The notes under the pieces were generated by a model, which was not told the origin of the DNA, searched no databases, and saw nothing but the letters and a program-made list of their open reading frames with translations. 64,000 bases of DNA from Bugulina stolonifera (Eukaryota; Bryozoa; Gymnolaemata; Cheilostomatida; Bugulidae): assembly GCA_935421135.1 (NCBI GenBank), contig OW285197.1, positions 10,195,223 to 10,259,222 on the forward strand. The letters are read 5' to 3'. Positions 9,996 through 33,708 of the stretch are shown here, one piece after another (the first letter of the stretch is position 1; every line of letters starts with the position of its first letter). The position numbers and the translations under genes are program-made.

Positions 9996-12900
9996 TTATC
10001 CCATGTAGGCTTCACGGCATTGTACTGGTCCAATGGTGATGGAGTATTCACCTGAACTTCGGGATGCCCTTATAAACTGATATGCTTTCACAAACTGTGG
10101 TTGGACTTTTGACAGAGAGTAGGTGATTGTATCACTTCCTGTCGCAGCGGTCTGATCTCTTGTGCAATGGCATCTATTACATAAACACATTGCAACATAG
10201 CATCATACAAAGATAGATGTACATGTACATTGTATGATTTAGTCTGGGAGTGTCAGTAACAGTACAAGTATGAGTACAAGTATGGGTTTAGTATGAGTAG
10301 GAGTACGAGTAGGAGTACAAGTATGAGTACGAGTATGAGTATGGGTATGAGTGTGAGCTGAGTCTCAGAGACAGTATTACAATGTACATACAAGTATTCA
10401 TTTTTCATAGACATGTTAGTAATACAAACAATCTCTGATGACGGTGAATATTTAAAGTCATGGCAGTGTTTAACTTATAGCATTGAATCATCAAATGCCA
10501 GATTTTTGTGTCCCCAACTCGTCAACCAATTGTAAGTTGAAATATAGTTTAACACTGCTAGTTTTAATAATTTAATAATTGACGGCAAGTCGGTGGAATA
10601 TCAAGAACCCTTAGATCTAGTGTCATTGCAACTTGCATTACATTGTAATAGCAATAATTTTAGTTAAGTACATGTACACTGTATATAAGTGAAATAACAG
10701 GAAGCAGCCGTGGCCTAGTGGTAGAGGCTCTGGACTTCTATGTGAGAGTCCCAGATTCTACTCCCATAAGGGTTATTGGTGTGGATGGGAAGGGCATTCA
10801 ACCTTGTAATGCTCTTGTGTCACATTAGTTAACTTTGCCATTGGTAAAGTGCCTTCTCCATCCCAAATTGGAGAAAGGCTTGCTTTCTTACCTGGGATTA
10901 ATATAGGGAAGTAAAATTGGTAAGTTTTATGCAAGTAAAATAAAAAGACTATAAGTTTACATACCCGGTGTGAAAACATGAAAGATCGGGACCTTTGGCA
11001 CAATCACAGACTCCTCCTAGATAGGCATAGTATCTGTGGGTATACGGGTCTGCCATTGTTGCCCCGGAGTGCTGTGTCGCAAAGTCGTCTGGGTACAGCT
11101 GAACTCCAAACCGTACATTTTTAATGTCTACACAACTCATTGATATCTATAAAATGTAAATCAATGAAAGGGAAAACTGGATTGCAAAACCATATATCTA
11201 CATGTAATATAAACTGTACTGACAAGCTACTGCTACTGTGCATGGTTAGGTTTGATCGATTCCATTTGATAATTAAAGTGGAAGAATCCCTAAAGTCTTC
11301 CTCAGTTGTCCTCTCTTGTATGAGCGAGAAATATAATTGGAAACCATTTATGATAATTTAAGTTATTTTATTTCTTTCGGCAGTAATTATATTGGTCTAG
11401 CCAAGTATTTTCTCCCCATCACCTATATTCTCTCATTGGAGTTTATAGAAAATATGAAGAAGTTTTCTTCTCATTGCATTATAGCGTCAAATAAATAGTA
11501 TTTTTTTGCTAATTGCACTCCCTTGATGTTTGAAATACAAAAAACAGTGAAAATGAGTGGCTAACTTTCTTATTATCAAAAGTGTAGAAGGAATTTATAA
11601 ACTCTTAGCTAATAGAAAATTTAATGGATAAAAACCTTCCCATGTGCTTCATAAGAAGAATAACTGTGTTACTTGAATAACATAGACTGCCTTTGTTTGA
11701 GATGAATTAGTAGCAGATGAAATTATCTGCTCTTGCACTGGCAGACCTTTTTGAATAGCTCTAGGCAAGTACTATGCGACAAGCTATCCAGCTTTTTGGT
11801 TGGTTTTGGTAAATTTTGGAAATTCTCCCTCTTTAAAGAAGGGCTATGATAACATAACTACATACATACGCATATATGCCTATTAATGCATGTACAACAG
11901 AGAATGACTCTAATACCTAATATTATCTTCTTGTAAATATCTGATGGCAACTGAGCAACAGCACAAATGCAAACTTACAAAACTATTTTGAAATGGTCAT
12001 TATATATTTAAATAGACCTGAATGTTGCAAACTCGTGTTGCATAAATTTGCATTCCTCAGGAGCTGTGTAAAGCATATTTGATGCAATTTGTCTAGGTCA
12101 AGTTATTTCACTTAAGCATAACTTTGCTTTGAAAAATCTGTAAATGTTATGCTAATAAACACCCAAGAATATCTACTGGGATAATTTTAATGATGTAGCA
12201 GTCTTTGTTCATTCCAATGCTATTATTTCCGATTTGTAGAGCTACATCCTGGTATAGAAATGTAACATTAAGTTTTGTGATGTGTATGACTAATTATGTT
12301 CTACCGGCATGGTTTAAAAGAAATTAAACAACTTTTCCAACTACATTTTCTTACCTCTTGTTTACATACTCCGGGATTGTTTGAAACCCACGAAGCGATC
12401 CAAGCGTCAGTGAGTGAGTACTTCACATAGACCGGTTCACCACAGAGACCGATGTCATGAATTGCATAGTTTACATCTGGGAATATTGGAGATGTTTCAT
12501 GGGTACAATCATGGTCAAACTGTAGAGAGTCAGTGCTAGAGATTGGGAAAATCTGCAATCCGTATTAAATTTAATTTAACATTTGCTGGTCATGATGATA
12601 CAATCTGTTGCTACTATGCAGCAACGATGCAACCTACATGTATCAGACCTAGAATCAATTCCTACTAATGACTTCAAACGTTTAATCCTGGTTCAACTGT
12701 GCAATAAATAATTAAGCCTTGCTTTCACAATCGCTCCTTTAATTATTCCTTTGGTAGTATTATTGAAAAACATGTTTCACAAGCAGAAAATAATCTGCCT
12801 TTGGTTAGAAGAATGCGATGTAAGTAAAGTGCATAGCATGTCTACACATACCCGAGTACTGAACTCTGTTTGACTTGTCTTGCAGCATCGTATTCTTGTT

Positions 12901-15900
12901 GAGTGAGGGTCTGCTGAGCTAGAATCAACTTCCAAGTCAAACGTAACGTCATGGCATGAATCTACGGCGAGTTCTTCAAACAAGTTGTCTCTCTTATAGA
13001 AGTCTTCACAGTCATTAGGGTGTTTATCTACAAACACAATGATAATATTGCGCAGCTGTATCTTCCATCAATATTACGGCTTATATTACTGGTTATCAAC
13101 AGTGACATCATCAACCTTCTGAAGAACAAAGTATATCTATAATTATTCTACTTTTACTTCAATATAGATATTATACAGTTTGCACAGTGTAGACAAAATT
13201 AGCTATACAACAAATGCTTAAACAGTAAATAGAAGCAAGGAGTAAGAGGGGAAGGAGGCTCGTCTCTGAGAAATCTATATGCATTCTTCGTCTTGGGATC
13301 AAATATCTTTAATTGAGTTGCTGAATGTTCATTGCAGAGAGTGGACAACTTCGTCAGTATATTAATGTCAACACAAACACCACTCCTTGATATAAGCTTT
13401 CAAGGAGGTATGATTTGAACATGCACATATCGCCAGTTAAAAATTTCAAGTTCACATTAGACATGCATCCACAATAGGAGGCAAAAACTCAGTATCAAAA
13501 CCTAAAACATATTATACATATCATGTGGCTCGTAGTAGTCCAAACTTACAGACACAAGTGTAGTTGAGAGGTGCAAATGTCCCGTCTTCTCTGCATATCG
13601 TTGCCTGTGTTCTGTTAGTTGCTGTCAAAGGTGCTGGAGCTATTCTGTAGTCATGCAAGCAAGTGTAATAGACGGCCTCCCCTACCTCATAGTCTTGTTC
13701 TAGTTTATCTGCATGTTCCAATGATGGTAGATTGTACCAAGGACATATCCCTTCTGAAAATTTGCCAAATAAAATTAGGTTATAATTTTTTGTAGTTTTT
13801 GTATGCATGAAGACCTGAATTAACATTATTTTCAACTTGGCTGGCGTCATAAATGTAATAATATACCTCATTTCTATATTAAATTAAACATTGTAAACCC
13901 ACGCTCTTTGCCTACTTTGTGTTTGTCGCGCAAAAGTGTAATTTAATGATTTCACAATGATTCACAGATAATAATTGAAACTCCATTATGCTTTATATAT
14001 AATTATCATGAGCATTATATAGCCATGATCTAAGTAGGCTGAATGCTTTAAACTTGAATAAAAAATGTATAGAAAGGATAAATTTTCAATGACGCACATC
14101 ATCTGAATAGTTATTTTTAAAAATATTTCAAATGCAATATATACTGTATATTGTCATATTCTACACAAGCCTATGTATATTCACTATTTTAAACTTGCTT
14201 CACTTGTAAATCAACCAAACAATTACCTAAAATTGGTATTCCTCTCACAGGTCAGACAGGTACGATGTAGAGTAACATACGTCAGCTAGCATAAGAATTT
14301 AAACAGCTCATCTAAGTGGTTTTAGATTTAGAAAAAAATCAATTAATATTAAATGCAAGACCTCACTATGAGAACAGATTTACTGGCAACCCTACCTAGT
14401 TGTGTAGGTTGAATACAGAAAGAAAATATCTGTGTGTCCTTTTCCCATGTTGTGTGTTCTACATATTATGTCAACTGGAATAAGAATTTGTGATTAACAT
14501 TTTCCTGAGTTAGGGTTTTTTTTCAACCATTTAACAAGTTTCTTGAGTAACATGAAGTTGAGTATTGTTCGCCAACTTTACTACCTAGGGCTGAGAATTT
14601 TGACAAATAAAATGATGTCTTCTTTGAATGTCACTCACCAGGTGGCGCCTCAGTTGTAGTCGTTGTCGTGGTAACAGCATCATAACCTTCACTGTCTCCT
14701 TTAATACAACAGGAATGTTTGAAAGCTTTCTTAGTGTGAGGTGTTGTAGTCTCATTAGTACTGGGTGGGGTGGGTGGTGAAGGCAGACTGCACATTCCAT
14801 CATAGTATGTACCACCTTCACACTCTAGGTTGTTCAGCTGGCAGGTTCCATCAAAATCATCTCTCGCCTCACAATCTAGAGAAGTGCAAAATCTGTGGCA
14901 AACCTCAAGTCCTAAATTTGTCACATTTTAAATGGGAAGCAAAAAGTTTGCTGAAATATAGTTCACTATTAATACTATGCGTTAAAGTTACACATCACCC
15001 ACCAGTTTCTGAGTAGTGTTTTGATCTGCCACGTTTAGGGATGTACACCGGTAGATAGGGGAGTTCTTCCATGCAGAATCTTAACTGTAATAGAACAACA
15101 ATGTTTCAGAACATTTTCACTTAAAAAATAAGTAAGTAATATTTCCCACTCAGGATGTGTTTATCCTTGAGCAAACAAGGACTGGGTTCAAAATCCTTGA
15201 CAATAACCCTCCCCTGACTGGGGCTTAAACCTGGGGGTCTAAATAACCGTTTACTAAATTATTGCATATGAGGCACGCATCTATGGCCACTTCACCGTTA
15301 TATAAATTGTATTAGGGATTTAGCTGTAGCTTTTAAATGTGACATTTCTAATGCAGGTATAGTGTATATTCTAGGTAAACTCAACCTAAAACACAATCAA
15401 GCGTGCGACTTAATATGTGATAGGCTCACCATGTTTATGTCTACGTCATCCGCCGTATCAAAGGCCACTTTGGTTTGATCACAAGCACTCTCTAGATTCT
15501 CTTTCAGATATATTCTTGACATGTCATAGCAGGTGAGTTCATCTTCTGTTTTGCCCAACATGTCAGCACAGGTGTCTGTTTGATTTTTTATAACCGAGTA
15601 GACAATGTTCTTGGAACATTCCGTATCATTAGTACACATTTTGTAATCTGGAAATAGATGCAGTAATAATATTTAAGTCACTTCATAATGTGATTTGCAT
15701 AACTTTTAAATATTATTAGTCTGGTTATTATTATCATAGTAAAGCATATAACAAATCAAAAGTCCGACTACGGGAATACGAATGCTAGTTAAAACAATAC
15801 TTCCGATCTTGCGAATTTTAATTTGGCTACAAGGATGGTTGCAGAGCTACATTAATGCATATACCAATGTGAAAATGTGATTATAGAAATAATTATTTAA

Positions 15901-16376
15901 AAAATATTGTTTATTTCTTACTACACGGATCTAACACGGTAGCATGTATCAAGTAACATAATCTAAATGATTACCGATTGTCTCTCCGTATATTAGCCAG
16001 GATTCTCTCGATATCTGGAAAATTCCACATTTGTCATCTCCGTCATAGCATTCATTCTTCTTTCCACCAATCATCTGCAAGTATAAATCAAACACTTTTA
16101 ACACCATAACCCATATATGAAACTACGGCCATTTGTCTCTACCTTTCGAAAATGTGCAATATGAAAATATGAATCAATTTACTCTCAGCTTACAGTATTG
16201 TTTAATGCATTCAATACAATCAATTGTCAGTTAAAAAACTAGTCAAAGTTCATAGATGCATAGAAACCTACCTGTCTTAAACAAACTATGCAATCATCAT
16301 GCTCCGTTGGGATTGTCTGTGACTCTACAACCGTAGACAGTGTTAAAATAACCGCTATGTAAACTACTACTAACAT
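9996..16376 (-). CDS. Gene B: secreted lysozyme-like/sushi protein, 559 aa, 10 exons
   Basis: Exons in transcript order: 16272-16376, 15975-16074, 15430-15647, 15003-15084, 14639-14875, 13550-13753, 12852-13027, 12355-12552, 10965-11146 and 9996-10173. All phases agree and the frame ends in TAA at 9996-9998. Residues 1-19 are a signal peptide (MLVVVYIAVILTLST). Residues 27-135 match the i-type lysozyme/destabilase fold: CIVC, ECYDGDDKCGIFQIS, ACxxDxxC-like CTNDTEC and LTCYDMSRIY. The usual catalytic Glu after the second Cys is Gln35, while the Asp (D46) is kept. Residues 170-197 are a four-Cys segment (GTCQLNNLEC, YYDGMC). A Pro/Thr-rich, probably O-glycosylated linker follows. Residues 251-314 are a sushi/CCP domain with four Cys (YYTCLHDY, ICREDGTF, NYTC). 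Residues 317-559 are an unrecognised Cys-rich region including VCDCAKGPD and IGPVQC. The protein is secreted, probably binds carbohydrate or microbial surfaces and may not be a muramidase; the binding role is inference. Confidence 0.85.
10250..10370. repeat. Hexanucleotide-type tract of GAGTAC/GAGTAT units
   Basis: A run of AGTACAAGTATGAGTA-like words with period near six lies in the last intron of gene B. Confidence 0.8.
10704..10960 (+). mobile_element. tRNA-derived SINE-like repeat
   Basis: The head resembles a tRNA: an A box TGGCCTAGTGG at 10711-10721 and a B-box-like GATTCTACTCC near 10754. A non-tRNA body with GGTGTGGATGGGAAGGGC and AGTGCCTTCTCCATCCC follows. It lies in the last intron of gene B. 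The 3' boundary is approximate and no target-site duplication was recognised. Confidence 0.6.
15145..15290 (-). mobile_element. SINE-like repeat, minus-strand copy
   Basis: Read on the minus strand the segment contains GGTTTAAGCCCCAGTCAGGG and a body with GGATTTTGAACCC, matching the copies at 19775-19895 and 25371-25615. It is in intron 3 of gene B. The boundaries are approximate. Confidence 0.55.
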
Positions 16377-17473
16377 AATGACGACTTTAGGTTGTTTTCA
16401 CTTGTGATGTTGTATAACTAATGAGTGTTAGCATGGCTTACCACTGTCTTATATTATTCTTCCTTGACAATGAAAACTAAATAAGGTATAATTTTAAATT
16501 GTTCAATGAATATAGACATAACCTATTTCATACTTGCGTCAGATCATTAGTTGAACCTTTACTACTGATACTTTGCAATCAACAACAGCAGAGTTTCAGT
16601 ATCAATTGCATATCTATTGTAACCACAAAGTGTGAGTTGGCCAACAGAAATGATCCGTGTATACACCGTACATGTAGTTATGTTTATCTGTTCACATTAA
16701 TCTATTTGCATACTCAACTGAATTTTAATTGTGAGAGGGGGGCTTCATACTAATATAAACCACCCCAGCTCGCTAAACTTCAGCTTCGAACAAAGGCTAT
16801 AAGGTAAAAGGGAAAAGCTGCAGACAAGGCTGGTTATTATATTCAATTTTTCTAAATATGATTTATTTAAGATCTCCAATACATTAGAAACTGAGGTAAA
16901 AGTAATGCTACAACACTTAGATCTATTTAGCATCAATAATTATAATATTATAAAAACTACACAACAGCTAGAGAACAGCTGTGTAGCTAGTATAAATGTA
17001 TCAACAGTCATACTACAGTTGCACAATCTTTATACAGCGGTTACACAACAGTTATGCAAGAGTTGTACAACAATTATATAATGTTTATACAACAGTTATA
17101 AAACAGTTACACAACAGTTATACAACAGCTACACAAAAGTTATACAACAGTTATACAACGCTTATACAACAGTCATACAACGCTTATACAACAGTTATAT
17201 GATGTTTATACAACAGTTAAACAACAGTTATACAACAGTTGGGTAAAATCCTTACAAAGTTTTATGTCAGTTATATAAAGTTGTACGACAATTAAGATGT
17301 ATATAAAAGTTACATAGCGGTTACATAGCGGTTACATAGCGGTTACATAGCGGTTACATAGCGGTTACATAGCGGTTACATAGCGGTTACATAGCGGTTA
17401 CATAGCGGTTACATAGTGGTTACAATACTTATGGAAGTTAGAAAACAGCTCTGAAACAGTTTAGTGAGAGATA
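16377..17473. other. Intergenic DNA between genes B and C
   Basis: This 1.1-kb spacer carries the promoter side of gene B next to 16377 and the 3' flank of gene C next to 17473. Most of its right half is 11-bp tandem repeat. I see no exon and no clear TATA box. Confidence 0.5.
16996..17423. repeat. 11-bp satellite in two subfamilies
   Basis: From about 16996 to 17240 the sequence is built from degenerate 11-mers near TTATACAACAG, with some variant-length units. From 17310 to 17423 there are 10.4 near-perfect copies of TTACATAGCGG, the last full copy reading TTACATAGTGG. The two units have the same length and similar sequence, so the second is likely an amplified variant of the first. The array separates the paralogous genes B and C. 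Confidence 0.9.
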
Positions 17474-19299
17474 TTATAGTTTGAAAACGTCACAACACTC
17501 TATCGGTCCTACGGAAATTGACAGACCATTGGCAGTTGGGTTGGAAGCGCCCTCATCCATGATCTCAACATGAATAAACTGGTATCCCTTCACAAAGTGC
17601 GGTTCCAAGCTTGTTAGAGCCTTCGTGATTGTGTCACTTTTACTTCGAATTTCTGACACAAACTTGCATCTAGAAAACATAATGTGTACTTAGGTGTACC
17701 AATATACATGAAGTTTTTGAAAAATCCAAAACTGCTACAGGATAGAGAAATGGGATCTAACCACTGCCTTCAATGTAGACTGTATTGAAATTTTGATGTT
17801 GTAAACTCAGTGTTCGAATTGTGGTTATACGGGAGTATACGGCGTATACCCACCTCAATTTTGGTGGGTACACTGTCAGCAGGCGTGTACCCTCATGGTA
17901 ATTGACTAGTTTTGCTGAAGACACGGCAGTTTTCGCAATCGAAATAGGTTTACTGGTTGCTGAGTGACTGCTGATCGTAAAATTTCCCTCTAATCTAGCG
18001 ATCGTTTGATTGATAACAGCGTGTTAAGTCAATCCCGAAATGTCAAAGTAAGTTTATAGTAGCTTGGACCAGCGATCTGCACACAAATAAATCCTTCTGC
18101 TTTACTAACAAAGTTAGTCATTGTATCAATGGTTTCATAGGACTTGAATATGGGTTCCACTTTCTTTAGTATTTTCAGCTTTCCGAATGCGTTTGCAGAG
18201 CCATGAAAACTTTTTGATGAGGACAGTGGCCAAACAGTTGAATCTAAAAGTTTTTTAGCTCTAAACCTAAATCTCAAAAGTAATTTGTTGTACTCTACTG
18301 GAATTTGACGTTTGAGTGAGTGATAAATATCGGAGACAGTTGTATTTTTCTTACTTTGCTAATAAAATATGAAATACAAAAATTAAAAATAAATATTAAT
18401 TTAATATCTAATATGATCATCCATGATGTTGTATATAACAATAACATAAATATTCGTATTTGTTAGATTGTCACTAGAAAAAGAATCTGTATTCAATAAT
18501 ATAACATATAAATAATAAATCAAACATTATATTAATTATGTAAAAAAATAAATAATTATTTATTATTTATAGTGATTAATTATTATAAATAATAATAGAA
18601 CTAGAAGTGAATCAATAGAATTAGATAATCAAATGCTAATCATATCATAATGATAACCATAATTATTTATATTTTCATTAATTTTTATATGAAATAAATT
18701 ATTTTGATAATGATTGTTGTAACAATACGCCTGCATCAAGTAGGCCCTATAAATAAAAATATTGCTTACTGGATTGTTACAAGAACAAGAGTTGATATTC
18801 AATAAATAAAAATGAAAATATAAAATAGAAATAAATTGTTTTTAATAGAACAGGGAATTAGATAATTGATTTATATTTAATGATCATTATTGTATCAAAT
18901 ATTTAATGCAAATAATATAGCAATTGTTGTATTGTTTTATATAAAATATTTTGATCTCATGTTGATATTTTTATTCTAGAATAGGTAGGAATACTATTTG
19001 TCTTTGCACTTAGTATTGAATTTCAACAGCTATAGGTATTGCGCTACTATTGCAAACTACTTCCAAGTTTAGTAAGTGAGGCAAAGAGTGAGGTTATGAC
19101 AAATTGGAATTCACAGAGAGCTAAGAAGAATCCTGTCACTGTTTGGTCTAGATGGTACTAGTAGAAACTATGTATTTGGATTGAGCCTGGTTTCACTGGT
19201 TGACTGCAATTAAAGTAATCGTTTTGTTTGTATCCTCTATTTTTGTTGTATTGAGGTGATTCATTGCTTTCAGAAGTCCACAAAAGAACACAGGTAATG

Positions 19300-19400
19300 A
19301 AGTTGTATGCTGCCTATTAGTGTACTTGCATGCCGCATATTAGTGTACTTGCATGCTGTCTATTAGTGTACTTGCATGCTGCCTAGTAACCTACATGCAT
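19300..19400. repeat. Minisatellite, about 25-bp unit
   Basis: About three and a half copies of a unit around TATTAGTGTACTTGCATGC lie inside the hAT-type element. Confidence 0.75.
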
Positions 19401-19774
19401 GATAGTTTGTCGAGTATTTTAGGTAGCTGAATAGTCTTTTTAGGCAATACTATATTTTTAGTTTACATTGAATTTACTGTCAGTATGATTTGATATTTCT
19501 TGCTAAGGTTATATTCGGCCATGGATTTAACTTTGAGGCCAGTTTTTACTAGTTCTGCCAATTTATAAAACATTTAGCATTTTTGGAAGATGTTGTCACA
19601 AGTGGTGAGGATACGTCTTGTAATACAGTGTTTAGTGATCCAAAGGAAGCTGGTGAGGAATTTAATTTTGCAGAAATGATACCCTAATAGATATTTTTCA
19701 TATCTACTGCTCGCTGGTGAAGCTGTCTTTTTCTAACATTGCTGTACTGGTGTTGTGGCAAGGCAATGTCTTCT

Positions 19775-19895
19775 GTTCACTTTTCTAGGCGATTAGGCAC
19801 TGTAGAGACCATTGGTTCAAACCCCAGTCAGGGCCTGGTGTTTTCATGGATTTGATGCAAGACCTGACAGCTCCCACAGATAAATTCCTTAAATT
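19775..19895 (+). mobile_element. SINE-like repeat, plus-strand copy
   Basis: The segment has a tRNA-like B box (GGTTCAAACCCCAGTC) followed by CATGGATTTGATGCAAGACC and AGATAAATTCCTT, shared with the copies near 15145 and 25371. It is nested in the hAT-type element. Confidence 0.6.
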
Positions 19896-20966
19896 AACAA
19901 AATTATAATAATATTAGAGAAAACCCAGTGAGTAGTACATGTATATATCCTAGATAAATTGGTGAAACTCCTTTACACAGGTATGTATGTTTTATAGGCT
20001 TCAACCTTTTAACTTTTCCTTATAGCTGTTGTTCAAATAACATTACTGGTGTTATATAATAAAGTCTACAGGTAGGTTGTGACAAGGGAAATACATGTAT
20101 TTTATTGTTTAATACTTTTGTTCATTATAATTTTGTTAATAAACTTCAACTCCTTCCCTTCTCTAGTGTTGATGTCAATGTCATAGCTGTTTTGTTGAAT
20201 TACTATAGTTTTCATACAGTTGCAGTTACATGCTGTTGTTGTTTGTGTTTATATACTTTTGACAAAATATACAATTGTAAAATGTTGTAGTTCAGCATTT
20301 TGTAATAAATAAAGAAGTTGTTTTCTCTTTGACTACATGTACTTTTATTACAGTGAAAGAAAGATAAGGGGAGTTGTGTCGTTTTAAATAGTATAGATCT
20401 ATTCATTCTTACAATCAATGCAGCAGTAATACAAAATTGAAGGACACAAAGCACACTCAGTAGTTTAAAATATAAGGGATGGTCTCCATTGGTACCATGA
20501 CTGTACTCTGTGTAATGAGGTAAAGGAGCTATCAACCATAATTAGAAATTGTCCTCCCTTGTTTTGTCTTGCTGAAATGGGAGGATAACTTCTAATTATG
20601 ATCTGCAGCTTCTGAGTGACCAATGCACCCTTTAGGAAAGGTCCTAAGATTGCAGGTAGGAACCGTGTACCCACCTCATTTGTTCCACTTCGAACACTGT
20701 GTAAACTGCATGCGCCATTAGAAAGCCTAGTAGCAGCTGGACCAGTTAGCTCAATACAAGCTGGGCTACATGCCGTCATGCTAGGTTTATGCTCTGCCAA
20801 AACTTGTGAATTATACCATTGCAGCAAGTGAATGCCAGACCACACATTATGTTATTATAAACAGAAAATTTTAACTGAGTTTCTGCAAATGCTATACTAG
20901 GAATATCACAAAAAGTGGGTAAATATTCCTAAACAAAAATCCCTGTTTGTTGCAAAAGCACCTGTG

Positions 20967-21172
20967 AGAGTCTCCAAATGGTCACGTGGTGATTGTGGTC
21001 ACCTGGTTATTGTGGTGGCCTGTGGTCACCTTGTGATTGTGGTGACCTGTGGTCACATGGTGATCATGGTGACCTGTGGTCACCTGGTTATCATGGTGAC
21101 TTGTGGTCACATGGTGATCGTGGTGACCTGTGGTCACGTGGTGATTGTGGTGACCTGTGATGACCTGGTGAT
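20967..21172. repeat. 27-bp minisatellite rich in GGTGACC/GGTCACC
   Basis: Seven or so copies repeat every 27 bases: the word TGTGGTCAC starts at 21021, 21048, 21075, 21102 and 21129. Each unit contains a GTGACC word near its complement GGTCAC, so single units can pair. Because 27 is a multiple of three, long frames stay open on both strands, but I do not believe they are genes. It lies in intron 9 of gene C. Confidence 0.9.
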
Positions 21173-23462
21173 CGGGCCGCATGTGCGTTGGTTGGGAAGT
21201 AGCAAGTTCACATGTGGGGCAGTTGCACTGAAGCAATAACGCAGAGTGAAAGGCACGTTTTGTGCTGTATCATTATTCTCATTATTTACTGTTTTCTTAT
21301 GCTAATTGTGTTGTGCTCTGGTAGCCAACACGTAGGTGGTGAATGTGGTGGCTAAGGGGAGGTTAGAGAGCCATTGTAAAGCAGTTTGATACTGCGTGTT
21401 TTCAGTTTCCTTTTGATCAATTCTCTTTTGTTTAGTAAAATAACAATATCAAAGTTATTTTAGAGTTTTGCAATTTGATTGGCCAATACAGACTACTTGT
21501 TTACTTAATGGATAACATGATCACTCACTAGCTTGGTGCGTTAGATCTGTGGCATGTAGCAATATAGTTGCTGATACCTCTTTTACTAAATCAACATAGG
21601 CTTAGTACTGTTAGTTCACAGGAAGACGTGTGATCAGTTTGATTTATCACGTGAATTTCAAAAAACTTCCAATTTTGCATGTGTTCCATCGGTAGTCCAG
21701 TTACATATATGTTGTTAGTAGTATAGGGGTCAACGGGTGCATGTCTGTGGAGATGTGCGCTGACTATACAACTGTTGTTTTTAAAATTTGATGTTAATTC
21801 TATATATAAACAAGAGAAAAAGACTACAATCTTTCTTAAATTATTTTGGGAGTTGTCTCTCAATGCATGCCTTCAAGACGAGTGACACACTCACATCAGA
21901 AAGCTGCTAAGACCTCTCATTGTTGTCTTCTTCTGCTACTACTTGTTCATAGAATCTACATCAAACTCCAATGCATTGCTTGACTATTAACCACGTGTAC
22001 TTTTATATCATATAATATAGTGTAGTAGCAGTGTTGGACGATCGGATTAGTAAGTCGACAGCCATCCCAGTCGGTAATCAAATAATTTGCCTTGAATAAG
22101 CAAAGCCGAGTCTAATCTACAGTTTATGATGTCTAATGTCATCTCTATTCCAACTACTATTATAAAGAAGTACTGGCTACTACCATACCCATCTTCTCTG
22201 CATTCGTTTGAAGGGTTTGGTCCCTTGGCACAATCACATACAGCATCAATGTGGGGATAATTCCTTTCCCTGAACATAGGAAATTGATTCTTGCTATTAA
22301 GTGCCGTCACTGACCCATAAACGGTTGCATACGAGTTACCATAAGACTGTAACCCAAGGAAGCTTCTTCCCCCTCTAAAACCTGTACAGCTGATGGAGGT
22401 CTGCCAAGAACAAAAAATTAAAATCACCACAATTCACATGCTTATATACTATAAGTGTTTTCAGAAGAAAAAATACCAATTGTCTAAATAATACAGCTAT
22501 GTTTACAAATAAGGTTATTGGGACAATGTTTTAGCAGTCATGTTTGTTATCAGGAAAACTTATTAATAACAACGACGTGGTTTTTATTGAACTATCTACC
22601 AAAAAAGTTTAAAAGGCCAGTGTTCTCACCACTTGTTTGCAGCCCCCTCTGGTGCCAGATATCAGAGAAACAACCAGCTCATCCGCTATTGTGTATTCCA
22701 CGGTAGAGGGTTCACTGCAGGCTCCTCCTGGTCTTGATTCAACTATCGTCGCTCCAGAAAGTAGAGGTGAGGAGTGGCCACTACATAAGCTATCGTCAGC
22801 GGCAAAAGATCCATTGACACTTGGATGAATCTACAGTATAAATTATTTTTATTGCAAGTGCCCAGACAGCATCGAAATTCCATTTGCGGCATCTCACAAT
22901 ACTATTATGACAGTCGTGGTGTCGAGACATGCTTACAGGTCATATGACTGAGAGCAGGTGGCGAATGCACCTCTATTGATTACCGATAAATGGCCTACAT
23001 GGCCACACATTCTATTTAAAACTAGTATACTGACCTTCGTACAAAACTCGGTTATGCTTCTCTTGCAGCATTGAAGCATTTCAAGTTTTGAAATATCAAA
23101 TTCTGGTCCATGCCGATATGTCAGAACATTAGAACAGAATCCTACTGGAACCTCAGCAAAAACCTTGTATTGTCTGAAGTAGTCTTTACAGTCTTTCGGG
23201 TATCGAACTAAATAATGAAGCCCGTGTTATTATTCATTCTGAAGATGAAAGGGGGAAAAAAATGTTTATGTGTCAGAAAAGGCAGTGTACGCCATGATTA
23301 TTAATACGTCCGAATTCATTCAAAGAATTGAGGGTACAATGTACATTGCCTCATGTGTACGTGACATTTCTACATTGTACATGTAAGTGTACCCGCCATT
23401 AATAAAACTACACTGATTGACCTTTCTGCATTCTTAGGTGCATTAAGAAACCTAAATTTCAC

Positions 23463-23590
23463 CTGTGTGTGGGTTTTCACGTAGGCAGTATTGACATGTA
23501 CATCAAAATGTGGGTTGTCATGTAGGCAGTATTTACGTATGAAGTGGGTTGTCAGATAAGCAGTATTTAAGTGTAAGTGTGGGTTGTTTT
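23463..23590. repeat. Degenerate tandem repeat around GTGGGTTGTCATGTAGGCAG
   Basis: Three to four imperfect copies of a roughly 45-base unit containing TGGGTTGTC and GGCAGTATT lie in intron 6 of gene C. Confidence 0.6.
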
Positions 23591-23945
23591 ATTGTGCATC
23601 TTATTTAAAATCACTTTGAAAGCAATAAGATGTTACTAACAATAATTACCCAATAATCAGAACTTTTGTTGAAATTCTCTGACAATGAGCAATTTGATAT
23701 AATTGCTATCGAAAGACGGTAAATGTATAAATAATGTTATTCAAGAATGAATTCTAAATTGGTGTGTTCTACTATTAGCCAATGGTGCCGTGACATTTCC
23801 AAATTCAAATGAAAAATACTGGCTCGCTTACCTAAAATCAAAGGATCTCAATTCTATCATATGAAACATGTACATGTAAATAATGCTAAGCTAAATGTAT
23901 AGGTTACGTTAAAGAACAAACAAATATCTTAGATGAGTATGTGTC

Positions 23946-24008
23946 AGTAAGTAAGCAAGCAAGCGAGCAAGCGAGCAAGCGAGCAAGCGAGCAAGCAAGT
24001 AAGTAAGT
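23946..24008. repeat. Tetranucleotide tract GCAA/GCGA
   Basis: An uninterrupted run of GTAA, GCAA and GCGA tetramers lies in intron 6 of gene C. Confidence 0.9.
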
Positions 24009-25370
24009 AGCTGTACATGTATGTTACGTAGATGAGTTTGTATGGTTCACCGCATAGTAATCTACAACTTACCCAACTTAGTACAACTTAACCTGCTCTA
24101 ACTTAACTCAACTATACTTACAGATGCAAGTGTGGTCTAAAGGAGTAAATGTTCCATCAGCTGTGCACCTTATAGTCTGCGTTGTCATGGATGAATTTGC
24201 ACCAGTTGAAGATAATATGGTGTCATACACGCATGTATAGGTAACTTCTTCCTCTATGATATAGTCTCTGATTGGCCGATTAGCATTCTCCAGCCGAGGT
24301 AACGCTGAAGCTAAACACTTCTCTGTGAAAGACACAACATTTGACTATAATACAGTTATTATAGCCATTGCAGGAAAAAGTAAGATTTACATAGACTCAG
24401 GACTTGAGTAAAGTAACTATCTGACTAATTTTCAATTTATATTGTAATCGATATATCATAGCTGGGTCAGTGCTAGACAGGAAGTCCCATAATTTTCAAG
24501 GTCAAGGTCGGCCTGTGGCAGGTGGAGTGTAATCATTAGACAGTATTCTTGTGTAGTTTGAAAAATCTCACTCTTGTTTTTCTGCATGGAAAATAATGAT
24601 GTGTGAGTCGAGCAAAAACTTGGAATTCAAAACTGTCTAGAAGGGTGAGGTGGTTCTAACAAGCATACATATACATGTACATATACAAGTAGAGTATGCT
24701 TCCAAACTATAATATTATGTCTCCATGTTTAGTAGAGCAAGTTAATAACAATGATTCTACAGTATTGTTATGTAGTTTATAAAATCTTCATTTCGTAAGA
24801 TTTCTCTCATACCAAGACACTGGATAGATCTACCTGTGCACTAACTAGTCTTACATGGAAGGATTGCGAATATTATAACTATTATCTACATGACTTGTAC
24901 TCGTACGGTGAGGATGATAGTTTCTTCAATTTTTACATGGCTCTACAGTCAGAGCTTGTATTACAAGAATAAACAGTTACAATAAGTTTAATTTTTTGAA
25001 TTTTTTGTCCTCATAACACCATGATACAGAATGCTGAGGCTAGGTTGATAGTCAAAGTGGAAAAACAAGGAATATAAATCTCGCTAGAGAAGAGAAGAGA
25101 TTCAGTGAGTGAGTGAGTGAGATTTTTGCAAACTACGATTGTGTCTATGAACAAAGAAACCACTATCATGTACATGTACTGATGTTATACACAGGGTCTG
25201 TACAATTTAGGCTACATTTACAGGCAAAATAGAGTATAATAGCTACGCAGCAACTCCAACCTCCAGAGTCAGAGCTGGGTTACCTTAAATGATGAAATAT
25301 AGTACTACGAATAACAAATTGTTTTGCATACACAGTTTTCCTTGGGGGTTTCGCCATTTTTTATATAATA

Positions 25371-25615
25371 TATGATGTATTTTTAGCAAGGAATTCATCT
25401 TTGAGCAGTCAGAAATTTGTTTCAAATCCCTGAAAATACCAATCCCTGACTGAAGTTTGAACCCGGGACCTCTACGGCACCTAATCGTCTAGCACAGTGA
25501 AGAGAACATGCTACCTCCTACACCAGCTCAGCAACCAGGGACTGGTATCTTCATGGATTTGAAACAAATTTCTGACTGCTCAAAGATAAATTCCTTGCTA
25601 AAAATACATCACATA
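25371..25615. mobile_element. Fold-back SINE: head-to-head inverted copies
   Basis: The left part (25371 to about 25495) is a minus-strand copy of the SINE-like family, with B-box complement GTTTGAACCCGGG. The right part (about 25535-25615) is a partial plus-strand copy of the tail. The two roughly 80-base arms pair with only a few mismatches and could form a long hairpin. It lies in intron 5 of gene C. Confidence 0.75.
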
Positions 25616-26240
25616 CGAATGTATGTGTGTTAGCTTAAAGTTTAAAGTAGAAACTTTAGAAAAGTTGGCAACTAGTTTGGTGGCCTTCTACCGCTGGGCG
25701 TTGTAGTACCATCTGCTCAACAAAGTGTTGTCTGTAATTTCAATACTTGCGTCCCAAATGATTTGTATTCAGATCAACCCGTGTATAGTTTGCTTTAGGA
25801 TATACTTGTATGTTGACTTACCAGGCCGAGTTGGAGTTGTAAGATTGACAGGGCCATACCCTTCCTTACTGAACTTCACACAACAGGAATGGTAGACAGC
25901 TTTCTTAGCTGGCTTAGCAGTAGTTACTGCCGGGTTGGGTGTAGAGGTCACATTAGGATGTGGTGTGGTAGTTGTGGAAGGCAGGCTACAGAGTCCATCA
26001 TGATATGACCCATGAGGACATTCCAGATTGTTCAACTGGCAAGTTCCTGTGAAAGTCCAGCTGCTCTCACATTCTAAAATATTCAAAATTTGTACAAGTT
26101 TAATATTTGACACTAAAAGAAGCTTAAATTTGGCTGAAGGCATTCTTTTAACCTTAAGCTTGCAGCTATTCCTTGTTTTGGCCCAAGTATAAGTGTAACA
26201 ACTCTAAGAGTTACCTACCAGTAGTGTGATATTTAGAGGC

Positions 26241-26243
26241 TTA
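26241..26243 (-). other. Premature stop codon in exon 4 of gene C
   Basis: The minus strand reads TAT TAA GCC in the frame set by exon 3. In gene B the matching exon reads through (PKRGRSKHYSET). The codons after the stop still align with gene B and end in the same phase-1 donor at 26218, which shows that the frame is correct and the stop is a local change. Confidence 0.85.
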
Positions 26244-28400
26244 ATATCTTACTCCCCGTCTAGGCAGATAGGGAAGTTTGTCTATGCAGTGTTGGAGCTA
26301 CAAAATATAAACCAGTTTGATCAGAAGCTTGTCAGATGATGAGCTACTAGTTATAAGTACTCAGAACTAGCGACTTCACTGTAACTTGACTGTGACTTCA
26401 CTAGTCATAAAGAGAAGAGTACGGCAATACTTAGCGAGATACTCATACTTTATTTGTCTGCAACTTGATCTGGTAGAGATATACGGTTTTGTGCATTAAA
26501 TTATAGACAACATGATACATGAGCGATCTTACAGTAGTTTACTCGTATGCAAATGGCTTTTAGAATATGTCATTGGGCAGTCATGGGCTCTATTTCAACT
26601 AATCTCCTGGCACAGTGGACAGAACACAATCTACGTCAGCTCAGCACACACAAAAAATAAAGCTTCACTTATGAGCTGTAGATGTGTACTGAGCCAACTG
26701 CATATGAGGGACGCCTTGATATCCTTGATGTCATACTATATGGCACATTGAGGATTTGGCCATTTCTTCACACATGCAATAATCTTAGTTTATAAAAGGA
26801 TTGTCAGATTTTGTCAGGTCTAAGAAAGATGGTACTCACCATATTTACACCAAAGCTGTCAAGATTTTCAAGCTCCGTTTTATATGAATTACAGGCATCC
26901 TCAAGACTCTCTTTGACATATATTCTTGACATGTCATAGCAGGTGAGCTCATCTTCTTCCTTACCAAGCATCTCTGCGCAGGTGCCCATTTGGTTCTTTA
27001 TAACTGAGTAGACAACTCTTTTAATGCAGCTGAGGTTAGTGGCACACAAATCGAAGCCTACATAGACAAACAATCAATTTATCATAAATTTTAAGAGCGT
27101 ATTCTCTACTATAATAGATCACCACATGTGGACAAGATACTCTTGTCTGTGATTTGTGATGATGCTCTGTGGTAGACGTCACAAGAAGTTTCCAAAGGTA
27201 ATACATGTAGACTATGTTGATATAACAGGTGTGAATATTTGGATTATCAAACTTAATACGTATGGTGAAACTAGTTTAATGGCTGTCAGGGCTTCATTGT
27301 ATTGCCCTACTATTGGAAAATAGGGTAGTCAGTCAAATACTATCTACTAGTTATGCAGAAAATACATGTAGTAGTTGAAATTTCATATTGTCACAGCAGA
27401 CATGTACGTGTTGGCCTGTTTAATACTATCCAACAGAAAAATATTCTAGAATGAGTCAGATATATTCTCTCTACCACTGTCGCTGATGTTACCCTTATAG
27501 CAAATGTAAAAGAACATCACAGAGACATTGACGAGTACATTAATACATTAAAACCACACCATATATGTACGTGCAGCTTGTACATGTATAGAGAATGGTA
27601 ACACTTACTTAGTGGTTGGCCATGAGCCAACCAGGATTCATTAGACATCTTGTAGATACCACATCTGTCATCTCCGTCATAGCACTTCAAAGCTTCTCCA
27701 CCAACAACCTGTAACAGTAGTTACGCGTACGAAATGAGAGACTTCCAACCATCAGCTAAATCAGCAAATGTTCTAGATCGGATGCATAACATTATGGTGG
27801 ACAAGGGAGGCAATCCTTACAACTACATGTACTGGAAATATATTGCATATCTTATAGTAGTTGAGATTACGCCAACTCTACTCTGCTCTTTTTTGTGAGG
27901 CGGAGAGTCGACTAACTTGTGTATTAATAGTCTGTCTATTAAAATAACCATTACCTATAGTGTACATCACAATCTTCCACCTGCAGGTTCCATTTATCAT
28001 GTTCCGTCGTCAATCCCGGTAGTATATCGGGTCTGGGCTTTTCGAAAAATGGAATATTATTTGGGTGTTCTAATATGTACTGTCACCATCAAACAAATTT
28101 TCACATTGCTCTCTTCGTGGACTAACAACTTAAATTATCTACCTGTATATATTTAGTTCTACACAAAAGTCATGGAGAATTACTGAGCTCAGTTTTTAAG
28201 CATTTTTATTTTATCTCTGTGACCACTAATTAGCCTCATAAAAATAATGGATAAAATTTTATAGCGTCAGTAAAATATGTACAGCCTACCTTTCCCAAGC
28301 AATCCAGACATTCCTCAAGATGTGGAGGTACATGCAAGAGAGATGCTGATGCAGCAGCGCAGGTAAAAATGAACAAAACGTAAGCAGGTAAAGAGACCAT

Positions 28401-29150: not shown

Positions 29151-32100
29151 CTAAGGAATAACGACTGCTCTCTGTTGAAGACTCTCTGGCATCTTCTCAG
29201 GTGAAAATTTATTTCTGGCGTCCTTTGAGCTCTCGTAGAAAGTTTTTCCAAAGTGATATTTTCCTCCTATAACAGTGGAAGAAGAGACTGATATTATTTT
29301 AGCTATCGAACATGTATCCTTACTCGAATGGAGTGAACACTTTCTCATAACTTATAATCGTATAGCAAACACTTGATCAATTGTATAATGTTGATAAGGC
29401 AATGTGGACAAGTAAAAATCAACACAATGTTTGCTTTACTATCCTGAAATGTAATCTGAGAATATCACTGCACAAAGTTCTGTAGATTGTACCTACATAA
29501 AGACCTCACTTGCAGTTCACATTGATTATTGATGAGAAGGTGTCATCATGACATGGTACTAAGACCAAAATTACTCATGACTTGATCGCTTGAGGTAGAA
29601 GATAGCAAATTAATAATTATTAGTGAATTAGTAATTTCTCTGGGTTAGTGCATACAGTAAATGGAATCTAATGAGATCTAATCGCTGGAATGTGCCAAAG
29701 TACTGACCTGGGACATGCCCAGTATATCTAGGAACTAGTCCACTCTCTGTAGGATATATAGTAGGTCTCCAAGTTTCAGGCGGAGAGGCTCTATTTACTT
29801 CTACCTGTTTAAATTAAGGAATGAGCCGGGGATCAGAATAAATTGATTTAAAATCATGAGTCACTCTAATATCTAACAGAAGTTTTATTTAGTAATCACA
29901 ATTTCCATGTAGATTTCTATCAACAATATTTTTAACATTACCTGACAATATAAAGTATTAGGTCTACTTAGTTATTACATATACATGTACAGATACATAC
30001 ACTGTATTATGTGTTTGCATATTATGTATATACAGTGTATGTACCCTTAGATAATATTATGTACATGTATATGTACTAAAGTCATTGTCCAATCCTATGG
30101 AATGTCCCATAGCTACAATGCATTGTGAAATATTAATTTGCCCAAACCGTTGGTTGAATATCTATGACCTTATTATAATTTCTGCAAAGTGTATTGATAT
30201 AATTATAGTATTGTAACCAAACCCTGTTATACAGTGTCTCTGTATACAACGAAGGACTAGAATACCCATTAAATCTATTATTTAGTAGTCTATACTTCTA
30301 TTCCAAGTATTCTGGGTATTCCAAGTAAGTATAAACTCACTGGGGTAGAGAGGACAACTCCCTGTCTCTCCAGATCATCTGTAAATCTGTTTAGAGCTGT
30401 GTGGGTTATACTCTCATAGTCCTTACCAAACAGTTCATGAGCTCTGGGAACAAACCCCATGTAACCTACAAACAGCACAGCAGATGCTGAAGTTGTGTCA
30501 TCTAACTACCTGCAGAATTGGAAAACTGTAGTATTAGTTTGGCTCACAGGCTAGTTACGCCTCAGTTAATCAAGTGGCCAATTGTTCATTTTCAGCTAAC
30601 GGCGCCTTGTTCTAGAGCAAAAAGTCTTCTGGGATTGAAACTTTAAATTTTATATACCAACTAGTGATAGCCTGTCATCAAACAGTGTACAACAGCTTTC
30701 ATTCACTGGTTCCCATGCTATTAAGTTTCAGATAATAAAATTCTTATTTATTGATAACTTGATAACATTGCTGGTATTATAGTGAACTCTGATGTTCATA
30801 ACAGGACTGCTATCAAAATATGAGGAAATCGAAGACACGTCTAGTACAACCTTATATCATTAAACTAACCAGAAATAAATCTTTTCTCTCTGTCATCCTT
30901 TCTTAGCTTGTAAGGACTGAGTTTAGTGTCAAATGAGTTATTAGGTACATAGTCTAACATGTCCTCTCTAATCTTCTGCAGTGGCATAGGGTGTCTCGTC
31001 TTCAATGGCTGCATAAAATATGGGTTTATCCATTTACAACTGGACCCTTCAAATTATTTTGAAAGACTTTTAAGTGTACATGTATATTTCACCTGGAACG
31101 GACGGACAGAAATCAAATGTCATGTTCAACAATATTCTCGACACATTGGCTAAACTTTAGACTTAGATGTAGCTCACTTGTATCGTTGTATACAGATACA
31201 GATATGCATATTATACACTTTATCTTTACTCATAATATTCGTTGACCAACCGGAAGGGCGGTGGATGGGATCACATAGTTTTCATGCACAGGTTTACCGG
31301 CCTGCAATTGGTTAATTGCCTTCAGCTCAGCTTTCTTGTATCTCCGTCCCCTCTGCGACACTTCAAAGTCTGATATGGCCAGCAAACCTGTCTTAGCGTA
31401 AGTATTGCCGCAGTAATCGTTCACAAGGGGTATCTCTCCTGACAAATTTAATTGCAGAAACAATCAACATTACTTAATCTGAGATAAAAAGAAATTTTAA
31501 CAAACCTGTGTATGCAAGCACTAGTTGATACAAGCAGGTAACATAATGTATTTTTATTTTAGCGAAGATTAAGTCTAGGGGACTTTTGTCCAGAAAACAA
31601 ACTTGTATACCACTATATCCAGGTAATAGCGGCTATAGGAAGGTAATACATACCTGTATATCCTGGTACTAGAGGGTATAGGAGGCGTTGGTCTCCCCAA
31701 CTGGCTGTTCGGTTATGAATTATCTTTTTCCTTGTTTCATCAGGTTTCAATCCGCTGTTCCTAGAAATTTCAAACAGCTCAATGTAATATAATTATTGCC
31801 AGATGTCAACAGAATACTGTAATGGTTTCTGTGATTTGGTGCGGTCGTCCTTGGACGACTATCGACCCAGAAATGAAGTGCCTATGAGTGGTGCTAGGAC
31901 TTCGCATTACATGAAAGATCGAGCGGTCTCAGTAGCCCAAAAACTACCAGAGACGACCCATCTGGTCCCAAGTCTGACCTTCAGACTATACGTTGAAAGA
32001 GAGTGATCCGACCTAGTAGGCGGTTCGCTAAGCGAATGACCTGACAAAAGGAAGTGAAAGTCTCTGTATCAAGTATAGATGTGTCTTTATTGAAAGCCAA

Positions 32101-33708
32101 GTGAAGACTGAGACAATGAACAGTGAAACAATGCCCTTTATATAGTATAAGGACTTCCGGCCGACGTAGTGTCGGGAAAAGACGACGTAAGGTCGTCCGG
32201 AAGTTGCGCAACAAGATGGCCGCCGGAAGCCCAATGGACGACCCAAAATAGGTCGGGTTCTACAAAAGTTGCTTATAATGGTCCAATTCATGCACAAAAT
32301 GAATATCAATGGATTCTGAGAGGTCGGGCCTCTGTACATGGGTATAAAAGGCATAAAAGACATAGTAATAATCAGATATGAATGCGCATAAGTATGTATA
32401 AACACATGGAGACACGTATATAGACAGTAATTAAATGGTTTAACATGCAATGTAGTTTGAATGTTAGTATACGAACAGCTAATTATGAGAGTTTGAGTGT
32501 CAGATGAGTAGCGCTGTGACAACTACTAGGCACTTAGGGTGCTGTGGAGCTTCGTCCGGTAGTTGTAGTCGTATACAAATGTCCTGTACCATTACAATAC
32601 TATAGTTGCATATTTAGCCTAAAACCATACCATACTATCTACACGTACATGTAAGATCAACATATCGATGACGCAATACAGTATGGTCTGCCATCTGACA
32701 TACTAAGAGGTAGATAACCTCTAAATCACAGCTTGCTTCAACTGACATTCCATTTTGTAAACAACAAAATTTTTGAAATTTTGCAAGATGTAGTATTACA
32801 TTACCTGGGGTCTTGCTGTATATTAGCTAGAACAGAGACGGGTGATTTATCCACCTCTGGATTGGTTAGCAGAGCGTGTGTAGTTGTCGCGAACCTATGG
32901 CCACATTTATAGGCTAACTGTGGCACATGTCCGTCATATCTGCCAAAACAAAAGGATACTTTGAGGATGATCGATGAAACTAGTTTCCAGAATATCTACT
33001 ACATGTTGTGCATACTATACTTTTATTCTACTACCAGCAGAGGTGAAGAAAACCACATGCAGTTCCATTTCGAATAGTAGTTTAGTGGTTAACTTGCTGA
33101 TTGGTAGATCTTAGAGTCGCAGGTTCGAGTCACATATGCACCTGTAGTAGAATGTGAGCTCTTCCACTCAGAGCCCAGCTTCTGTTCCTCACATAAGCTT
33201 CAACTTCCGAGGAAGCCGGACAGTCAAGACATGCCACACCGAGTCAGTGTGGTCTCATGTCTAGCCCACACGATTGCAATTTTTGGACAGAATTTGATTT
33301 AAAGATTGACATTTTTGAAATATGCCTTCACTGAAATTGCCAAAATGGCGTACATAGGTGCATGAGAATTCATCTGCATTCTGTAGGAAATTGTGCAGTC
33401 ATGAAGTGCTAATCGCAAGAAGTTTCATCCATTGGAAAAGTAGACTCTCACAATTTCACCAACGCTCGCGATAGTGTGGCCTGCGCAATACTCCATCTTT
33501 ACAACACAAATTTATTTCAACAGAATGAAACTACACGTCTATAAGCTTTAAAAAATATGCATGTAAACGGCGATGAACTCGTAGAAATTTCTCACTGACG
33601 AAAATAATTCAATGTTTGAGTTGAGCACTGGATTGGGACAGTCAGTTCTTACCCGGGAATATGAAAAGGGTCTTTAGTAACTAGGCTGCCTTGAAGTGTT
33701 TGCGTCAT
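29151..33708 (-). CDS. Gene D: CIMIP2/FAM166-type ciliary microtubule inner protein, 320 aa, 8 exons
   Basis: Exons in transcript order: 33653-33708, 32805-32939, 31654-31760, 31251-31438, 30870-31008, 30341-30465, 29708-29804 and 29151-29266; phases agree and the frame ends in TAG. The protein carries four copies of the family motif P-x-Y-x-G-x-x-P with a downstream G-x-x-(F/Y): IPGYDGHVPQLAYKCGHRF near residue 17, VPGYTGEIPLVNDYCGNTY near 97, SGYMGFVPRAHELFGKDY near 208 and VPRYTGHVPGGKYHFGKTF near 274. Known CIMIP2 proteins bind the inner wall of axonemal doublet microtubules, so the product is expected in motile cilia or flagella. The exon 4 donor is uncertain: I used CCG|GTTGGT to keep the frame, whereas a better-looking donor (GTAAAG) just downstream follows an in-frame TGA. 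A solo LTR lies in intron 2. Confidence 0.85.
31230..31232 (-). other. In-frame TGA immediately before an alternative donor in gene D
   Basis: On the minus strand the frame of exon 4 continues through LPVGQRIL to TGA at 31230-31232, and the next bases are GTAAAG, a good donor. Using that donor, or reading through, gives a product ending at about residue 170 with two of the four motifs. The donor 21 bases upstream (31250) avoids the stop. Confidence 0.6.
31818..32596 (-). mobile_element. Solo LTR of an LTR retrotransposon (779 bp)
   Basis: The ends are TGTAATGG and CCATTACA, an 8-base inverted pair beginning TG and ending CA. The flanks are ATAC at 31814-31817 and 32597-32600, a 4-bp target-site duplication as made by Ty3-type integrases. 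Read on the minus strand, a TATATAAAG box (32136-32144) is followed about 45 bases later by AATAAA (32086-32091), as in a U3-R-U5 arrangement. No internal coding region or second LTR is present. It sits in intron 2 of gene D. Confidence 0.85.
33070..33320 (+). mobile_element. tRNA-derived SINE-like repeat
   Basis: A box TAGTTTAGTGG at 33078-33088 and B box GGTTCGAGTCAC at 33122-33133 give a tRNA-like head. The body contains GAGGAAGCCGGACAGTC and GTCAGTGTGGTCTCATG. The 3' boundary is approximate. It lies in intron 1 of gene D. Confidence 0.6.

Follow-up and report, generated by a model that had tools for sequence, protein, structure and literature searches.

Two adjacent genes of Bugulina stolonifera that look like chimeras of a lysozyme-like head lacking the catalytic glutamate and a sushi-bearing tail

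I-type lysozymes are mostly single-domain proteins. The residues that serve catalysis and are proposed to serve isopeptidase activity in one of them, destabilase, are taken here from the portion of PMC10126035 that we drew on, and i-type lysozymes without the conserved Glu and Asp have a precedent in Nilaparvata lugens (PMC3616906, in the part consulted). We analyzed a 64,000-nucleotide stretch of the genome of the bryozoan Bugulina stolonifera (the window, on contig C11), using one genome assembly for all gene models, coordinates, and family searches. Two neighboring genes in the window, B and C, look from sequence comparison like chimeras, with exons 1-5 from one gene family of this genome (family X) and exons 6-10 from another (family Y). 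The catalytic Glu is missing from the lysozyme-like head of both. The explanation that we favor, with moderate confidence, is that gene B encodes a secreted, chimeric, non-enzymatic binding protein in which an X-derived lysozyme-fold head without the catalytic Glu is joined to a Y-derived sushi and C-terminal tail, and that duplication then gave the B/C pair. A first-pass annotation of this DNA had foreseen neither the loss of the Glu, nor the origin from two families, nor a premature stop that is present in gene C.

Gene B runs from 16376 to 9996 on the minus strand and comprises ten exons separated by GT-AG introns of phases 0,1,0,1,1,1,0,0,2, with a stop-free frame of 559 residues. Gene C, at 28400 to 17474 on the same strand, likewise has ten exons and GT-AG introns, and its intron phases equal those of gene B. 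The first-pass annotation had described ten shared exons in identical phases and a common order of signal peptide, lysozyme fold, four-Cys segment, linker, sushi domain, and Cys-rich tail. The layout, phases, and splice sites bear this out and the domain order holds in gene B, but the frame of gene C is broken by a TAA in exon 4, so that gene C as assembled would yield only the signal-like start and the lysozyme-like head. Signal-peptide calls for both genes denote a hydrophobic N-terminus in hydropathy only. The exons are as follows.

16272..16376, minus strand: B exon 1, signal-like hydrophobic start (hydropathy) and first Cys pair (...CIVCLRQ)
15975..16074, minus strand: B exon 2, cleft segment of the lysozyme domain, reading MIGG against VEGG/IEGG in ordinary lysozymes
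15430..15647, minus strand: B exon 3, second half of the lysozyme-like domain
15003..15084, minus strand: B exon 4, short linker exon
14639..14875, minus strand: B exon 5, family X four-Cys/HSCC module and Thr-rich tail, donor GTGAGT ahead of the stop
13550..13753, minus strand: B exon 6, sushi (complement control protein, CCP) domain, resembling the last sushi of family Y
12852..13027, minus strand: B exon 7, part 1 of the family Y C-terminal module
12355..12552, minus strand: B exon 8, part 2 of that module
10965..11146, minus strand: B exon 9, part 3 of that module
9996..10173, minus strand: B exon 10, part 4 of that module and the stop, with an AATAAA starting 61 nucleotides after the stop
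28290..28400, minus strand: C exon 1, signal-like hydrophobic start (hydropathy) and first Cys pair
27609..27708, minus strand: C exon 2, with VVGG where ordinary lysozymes carry the catalytic Glu
26840..27057, minus strand: C exon 3, second half of the lysozyme-like domain
26219..26297, minus strand: C exon 4, linker exon, interrupted in frame by TAA (26241-26243)
25822..26073, minus strand: C exon 5, four-Cys/HSCC module, then a Thr/Pro tail, with a GTAAGT donor ahead of the stop
24122..24322, minus strand: C exon 6, sushi-like exon, under the Pfam cut-off
23035..23207, minus strand: C exon 7, part 1 of the family Y C-terminal module
22630..22830, minus strand: C exon 8, part 2 of that module
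22189..22400, minus strand: C exon 9, part 3 of that module
17474..17669, minus strand: C exon 10, part 4 of that module and the stop

Two tandem arrays lie among these exons, one of 11-bp units in the gap that separates gene C from gene B (17002-17424) and one of 54/27-bp units inside the large last intron of gene C (20985-21174).

The stop in gene C (...LPRRGVRY*ASKYHTT...) counts against the explanation that we favor. No replacement phase-0-to-1 exon was found between exons 3 and 5 of gene C by a scan that recovers the real exon 4 in gene B, and the one strong alternative donor within the exon-4 sequence would, by reading, shift exon 5 out of frame. Gene C, and perhaps gene B as well, could thus be a decaying pseudogene, a serious possibility that we place somewhat short of an even chance. 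Set against decay are the nine other exons of gene C, all open and bounded by GT-AG introns, the fully open frame of gene B, and the codon-position pattern of the differences between the two genes, which are commonest at third positions in both halves. That excess is slight in exon 6 (0.48/0.37/0.49 at the three positions) and exon 7 (0.40/0.42/0.45), which tempers the argument. Identity between B and C is approximately 50% over exons 1-5 (243 aligned codons) and 35% over exons 6-10 (305 aligned codons).

The destabilase fold proposed in the first-pass annotation was recovered by profile search for gene B and narrowly missed for gene C. PF05497 (Destabilase) scored 29.1 bits with the whole gene B protein and 33.7 with its N-terminal part alone, against a cut-off of 26.2, and 25.4 bits with gene C. 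We built a head profile from B, C, and six family X members, leaving the ordinary lysozymes out, and searched the PDB with it. Its four matches at E ≤ 1, with no other PDB sequence at that level, are all named Lysozyme: 2dqa (6.5e-7), 3ab6 (1.5e-6), 8bbu (2.7e-6), and 4pj2 (3.3e-6). We take these four to be i-type lysozymes, 8bbu presumably being the leech destabilase. Gene B alone matched 2dqa at E=0.0069, and a profile of only B and C gave weaker matches to 8bbu (E=0.0054) and 2dqa (E=0.015). All eight members of the head profile matched PF05497 at E ≤ 1, and the intron phases of the ordinary lysozyme L001 are 0 and 1, as in gene B. A whole-genome PF05497 search returned 14 exon matches with B and C not among them, a point against the assignment that is explained by the low scores of single exons.

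Other matches of the head were judged to be chance: IMP-nucleotidases (E ~0.04) with the B and C profile and seven further Pfam families, each in one of the eight members (E 0.063-0.17). A Pfam row for zf-C3HC4 (E=0.28) was likewise set aside as chance. Among the ordinary i-type lysozymes of this genome, three adjacent loci with the catalytic Glu (L001-L003) lie at G000:C3:13202917-13218516. At another, L008 (near G000:C7:3545052), an open reading frame adjoining the lysozyme exon resembles hAT/ZBED-type transposase-derived proteins.

Exons 1-5 belong to a large family. A genome search with gene B gave 78 exon matches, and the four-Cys exon 5 has 78 matches at E ≤ 0.001 on ten contigs (C1 and C3-C11), several at one place. 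All six family X genes that were modeled, with exon 4 not placed, have the lysozyme-like head, and B and C show the same combination of lysozyme-like exons followed by a four-Cys/HSCC exon 5. Five family X copies lie on C11 within 91 kb of the window. A tree of exon 5, which carries a long-branch warning, places B and C with family X copies from C7 and C10 at support 97/97. The exon-5 module matched nothing in Pfam beyond chance (CPW_WPC, E=0.61 in one of nine sequences, being chance). Two further X loci are of interest in themselves. At G000:C4:4368881-4369771, seven matches to the exon-5 module fall within 0.9 kb, several in one 168-residue open frame, and the module seems to be tandemly repeated there. 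At L069 (G000:C10:2050436-2050739), exon 5 continues into a long Thr/Ser/Gln-rich tail with no stop before the stretch ends, possibly a further extended or fused X gene.

Exons 6-10 point to a different family, matched on one contig only. Matches to the sushi exon and exons 7-10 were found only on C11 (53 of 53 at E ≤ 0.001, B and C included). In each of the six Y loci that were read by eye, several sushi-like exons stand upstream; four of them show a hydrophobic start and a Lys/Arg-rich stretch, and no lysozyme-like head was seen in any of the six. At L026, all five upstream exons match PF00084 and four exceed its cut-off. Splice sites were read in two Y genes; wherever the phase of exon 6, 7, 8, or 10 was found, it is that of B and C, the exon 9 start and, in L031, the exon 8 start standing outside this comparison. 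Exon 9 is incomplete in L026 and L031, as is exon 8 in L031. A tblastn search of the window at E ≤ 0.1 found nothing for the basic start of family Y or for any of five Y sushi exons; the last-sushi query alone matched B and C.

The sushi domain of the first-pass annotation passes the Pfam cut-off only in the exon of gene B, and there only when that exon is scanned by itself. PF00084, with a cut-off of 20.7, scored 22.5 bits with gene B exon 6 alone and 17.5 in the whole gene B protein, and 17.1 bits with gene C exon 6 alone, where the match spans the profile's last third. Four Cys are common to the two exons. A sushi profile combining B and C with six Y exons matched complement receptor 1 (5.4e-18) and factor H (5.9e-13) as whole-sequence scores, with few single stretches passing alone. 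The Cys-rich C-terminus, which had been called unrecognized, is the C-terminal module of family Y. Profile searches with the exons 7-10 region found no PDB chain, and its Pfam matches did not rise above chance. The rows for ComF (E=0.61), carotene oxygenase (E=1.6), and LSR (E=6.2) with this module, and for Ephrin_CRD (E=0.03) with family Y, are at chance level. Searching 5.8 billion proteins with the exon-7 profile gave six candidates and among them one match, P0001, an exon on an 897-bp ENA metagenome contig, at best 66-67% identical to the Y module of this genome. This match implies that the Y module exists in another source.

The composition of family Y bears on what the tail might do. Sushi domains and Thr/Pro stalks are found in adhesion proteins, and the several sushi exons of family Y, together with the Lys/Arg-rich start in four of six loci read, would suit a structural extracellular-matrix or adhesion protein in which the lysozyme fold serves only as a disulfide-rich scaffold and no microbe is recognized. 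We regard this as possible but on the unlikely side. Nothing decisive stands against it, although the X family is large, diverging, and in part clustered, which suits immune families at least equally. On sequence grounds, B and C may bind microbes or matrix instead of digesting them, and we place microbe recognition somewhat ahead of a structural matrix role.

The join between exons 5 and 6 determines whether there is one gene or two at each copy. B and C might each be an ordinary X gene ending at exon 5 next to a headless Y fragment of exons 6-10, the two co-copied in tandem duplication. Exon 5 is indeed normally the last exon of an X gene. We checked 34 copies out of the 78 exon-5 matches (L035-L047 and L058-L077), chosen as best matches of gene B, as near the window, or as spread across contigs, and exon 5 ends in a stop in 14 of 14 copies of the first set and 19 of 20 of the second (L074 and L077 by eye), the exception being L069. 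We then scanned for the donor pattern GTRAG[TGA] between the GY motif and the stop. It is present in both B and C and in none of the 32 other X copies scanned, and the full-consensus donors of B and C are in the same phase. Intron 5 is 885 nucleotides long in gene B and 1,499 in gene C. Within 1,500 nucleotides after the exon-5 donor no AATAAA occurs in either gene, whereas in six of six X genes one lies at most 1 kb from the stop. A scan of intron 5 for a signal-like exon from which a separate tail gene might begin found none; the same scan, of unmeasured sensitivity, matches one of 53 control tiles. Exons 6-10 have also stayed open in both genes despite the 35% protein identity. Taken together, the donor contrast, the lack of AATAAA, and the lack of a start-like exon favor a single spliced gene, and we infer a single transcript; two adjacent genes seem improbable.

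Several observations weigh against this conclusion. The donor contrast covers fewer than half of the exon-5 matches and applies to the full GTRAG[TGA] pattern, not to weaker donor types. Were the donor of gene B unused, translation would stop after two more residues (...APPGE*), giving a protein end similar to that of the X gene L035 (...TPFV*), in which case exon 5 might yet be the last exon. An ATTAAA follows the exon-5 donor at 692 and 1326 nucleotides in B and at 830 in C. Trees of either half, with a long-branch warning, leave the pairing of B with C unclear, and the tail tree does not resolve the two. Finally, most of the helminth-specific fusions examined in PMC12964723 were likely prediction artefacts, and fusions without RNA support are often false, as far as the part of that source used here goes.

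The active site separates the B and C heads from the ordinary lysozymes. The ordinary sample comprised eight PF05497 loci from the 14 exon matches, with exon 2 readable in five (L001-L005). All five carry the catalytic Glu in VEGG or IEGG, also when located by a pattern that does not require Glu. At the same position, exon-2 residue 2, gene B has Ile (MIGG) and gene C has Val (VVGG); two of eight family X genes (L040 and L042) have Glu there. Aligned with destabilase, with residue numbers from our own count on the alignment, Glu34 is replaced by Ile in B and Val in C, Ser49 by Asp, Ser51 by Lys in B and Arg in C, and Lys58 by Ser. The His of the LHNGG motif of ordinary lysozymes, which we take to be destabilase His112, is Tyr in both. 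Given the changes at the Glu34, Ser49, Ser51, and Lys58 positions, both wall-cutting and isopeptidase activity are unlikely in the B and C head. That the head is still enzymatic, as a muramidase, an isopeptidase, or a changed hydrolase, with a tail that merely targets it, is very unlikely: the PF05497 match, the Asp of B and C that aligns with catalytic Asp46, and the Glu of L040 and L042 speak for it, but the two-Cys loop that holds this Asp is two residues shorter than in L001, and the Glu and the three isopeptidase positions are altered as described. Loss of the catalytic Glu makes recognition likelier than digestion, which lends the microbe-recognition role suggested in the first-pass annotation some support, although the loss alone does not prove it.

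If gene B is a chimeric binding protein, as we favor, its history can be outlined conditionally. An X gene whose exon 5 ended in a Thr-rich tail would have gained a splice donor ahead of its terminal stop, and splicing from this donor to a Y gene's last sushi exon would have made the join at a phase-1 intron. Tandem duplication of the chimera would then have produced B and C, with gene C acquiring its exon-4 stop later. In the secreted protein, the cleft of the head may still bind a ligand, such as cell-wall sugar, and leave it uncut, the Thr/Pro stalk would act as a spacer between head and tail, and the sushi and C-terminal module might attach the protein to partners or matrix. We infer this order of events, like secretion and function, from the gene models. 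A broader proposal is doubtful as a whole: family X might be a genome-wide, mostly Glu-less set of i-type-lysozyme-like secreted wall-binding proteins, from which B and C, by intron-mediated capture of a multi-sushi tail, would have become soluble, opsonin-like recognition proteins. If the favored reading is true, an antibacterial or digestive enzyme would have become a binding module with a complement-like tail through exon capture. Both parent families are still present in one genome, making the steps traceable, and the analysis names two modules that match nothing in Pfam, one the four-Cys/HSCC exon of family X and the other the C-terminal module of family Y.

Elsewhere, an open reading frame stretch (MPFIPMYRGPTSQNPLIFIL...) at window 32028-32522 recurs near the X gene L035 on C7 and is probably a dispersed repeat. 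At G000:C5:14673280-14678530 (L050 and L051), two cathepsin-like exons are adjacent, one with CGSCWAF and one with CGSSWAF; in L051 the catalytic Cys is thus replaced by Ser in a cathepsin-B-like setting. Of the 37 Peptidase_C1 matches in this genome, 10 were read, and no silicatein was seen among them.

Database and literature searches returned no protein of the same architecture. The whole gene B protein gave nothing at E ≤ 1 among 2,889 candidates from 5.8 billion proteins, and the exon-5 profile nothing at E ≤ 0.1 among 61 candidates from the same collections, an absence that says little because these collections seem poor in animal genes. No lysozyme-sushi protein appeared among the matches listed in a literature search by title and abstract opening, a scope outside which PMC9572377 and PMC2675706 (which mention destabilase and sushi) fall. 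Compared with the i-type lysozymes and destabilase (PF05497; 8bbu, 2dqa), B and C are alike in sequence profile, Cys pattern, and the intron phases of L001, and differ by the changed catalytic Glu and proposed isopeptidase residues and by approximately 420 extra residues. The Nilaparvata lugens i-type lysozymes are also lysozyme-like with non-conserved catalytic acids; unlike B and C, the four complete proteins have 158-176 residues, and the portion of PMC3616906 used mentions neither a sushi domain nor a Cys-rich tail. With complement receptor 1 and factor H (PF00084), the likeness is the whole-sequence match of the exon-6 family profile to complement CCP proteins, whereas in B and C a single sushi stands between a lysozyme-like head and a module that belongs to no known family. 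The multi-sushi family Y on C11 has further sushi exons and a different start, unlike B and C, but its last sushi and exons 7-10 are homologous to theirs, with equal phases where read.

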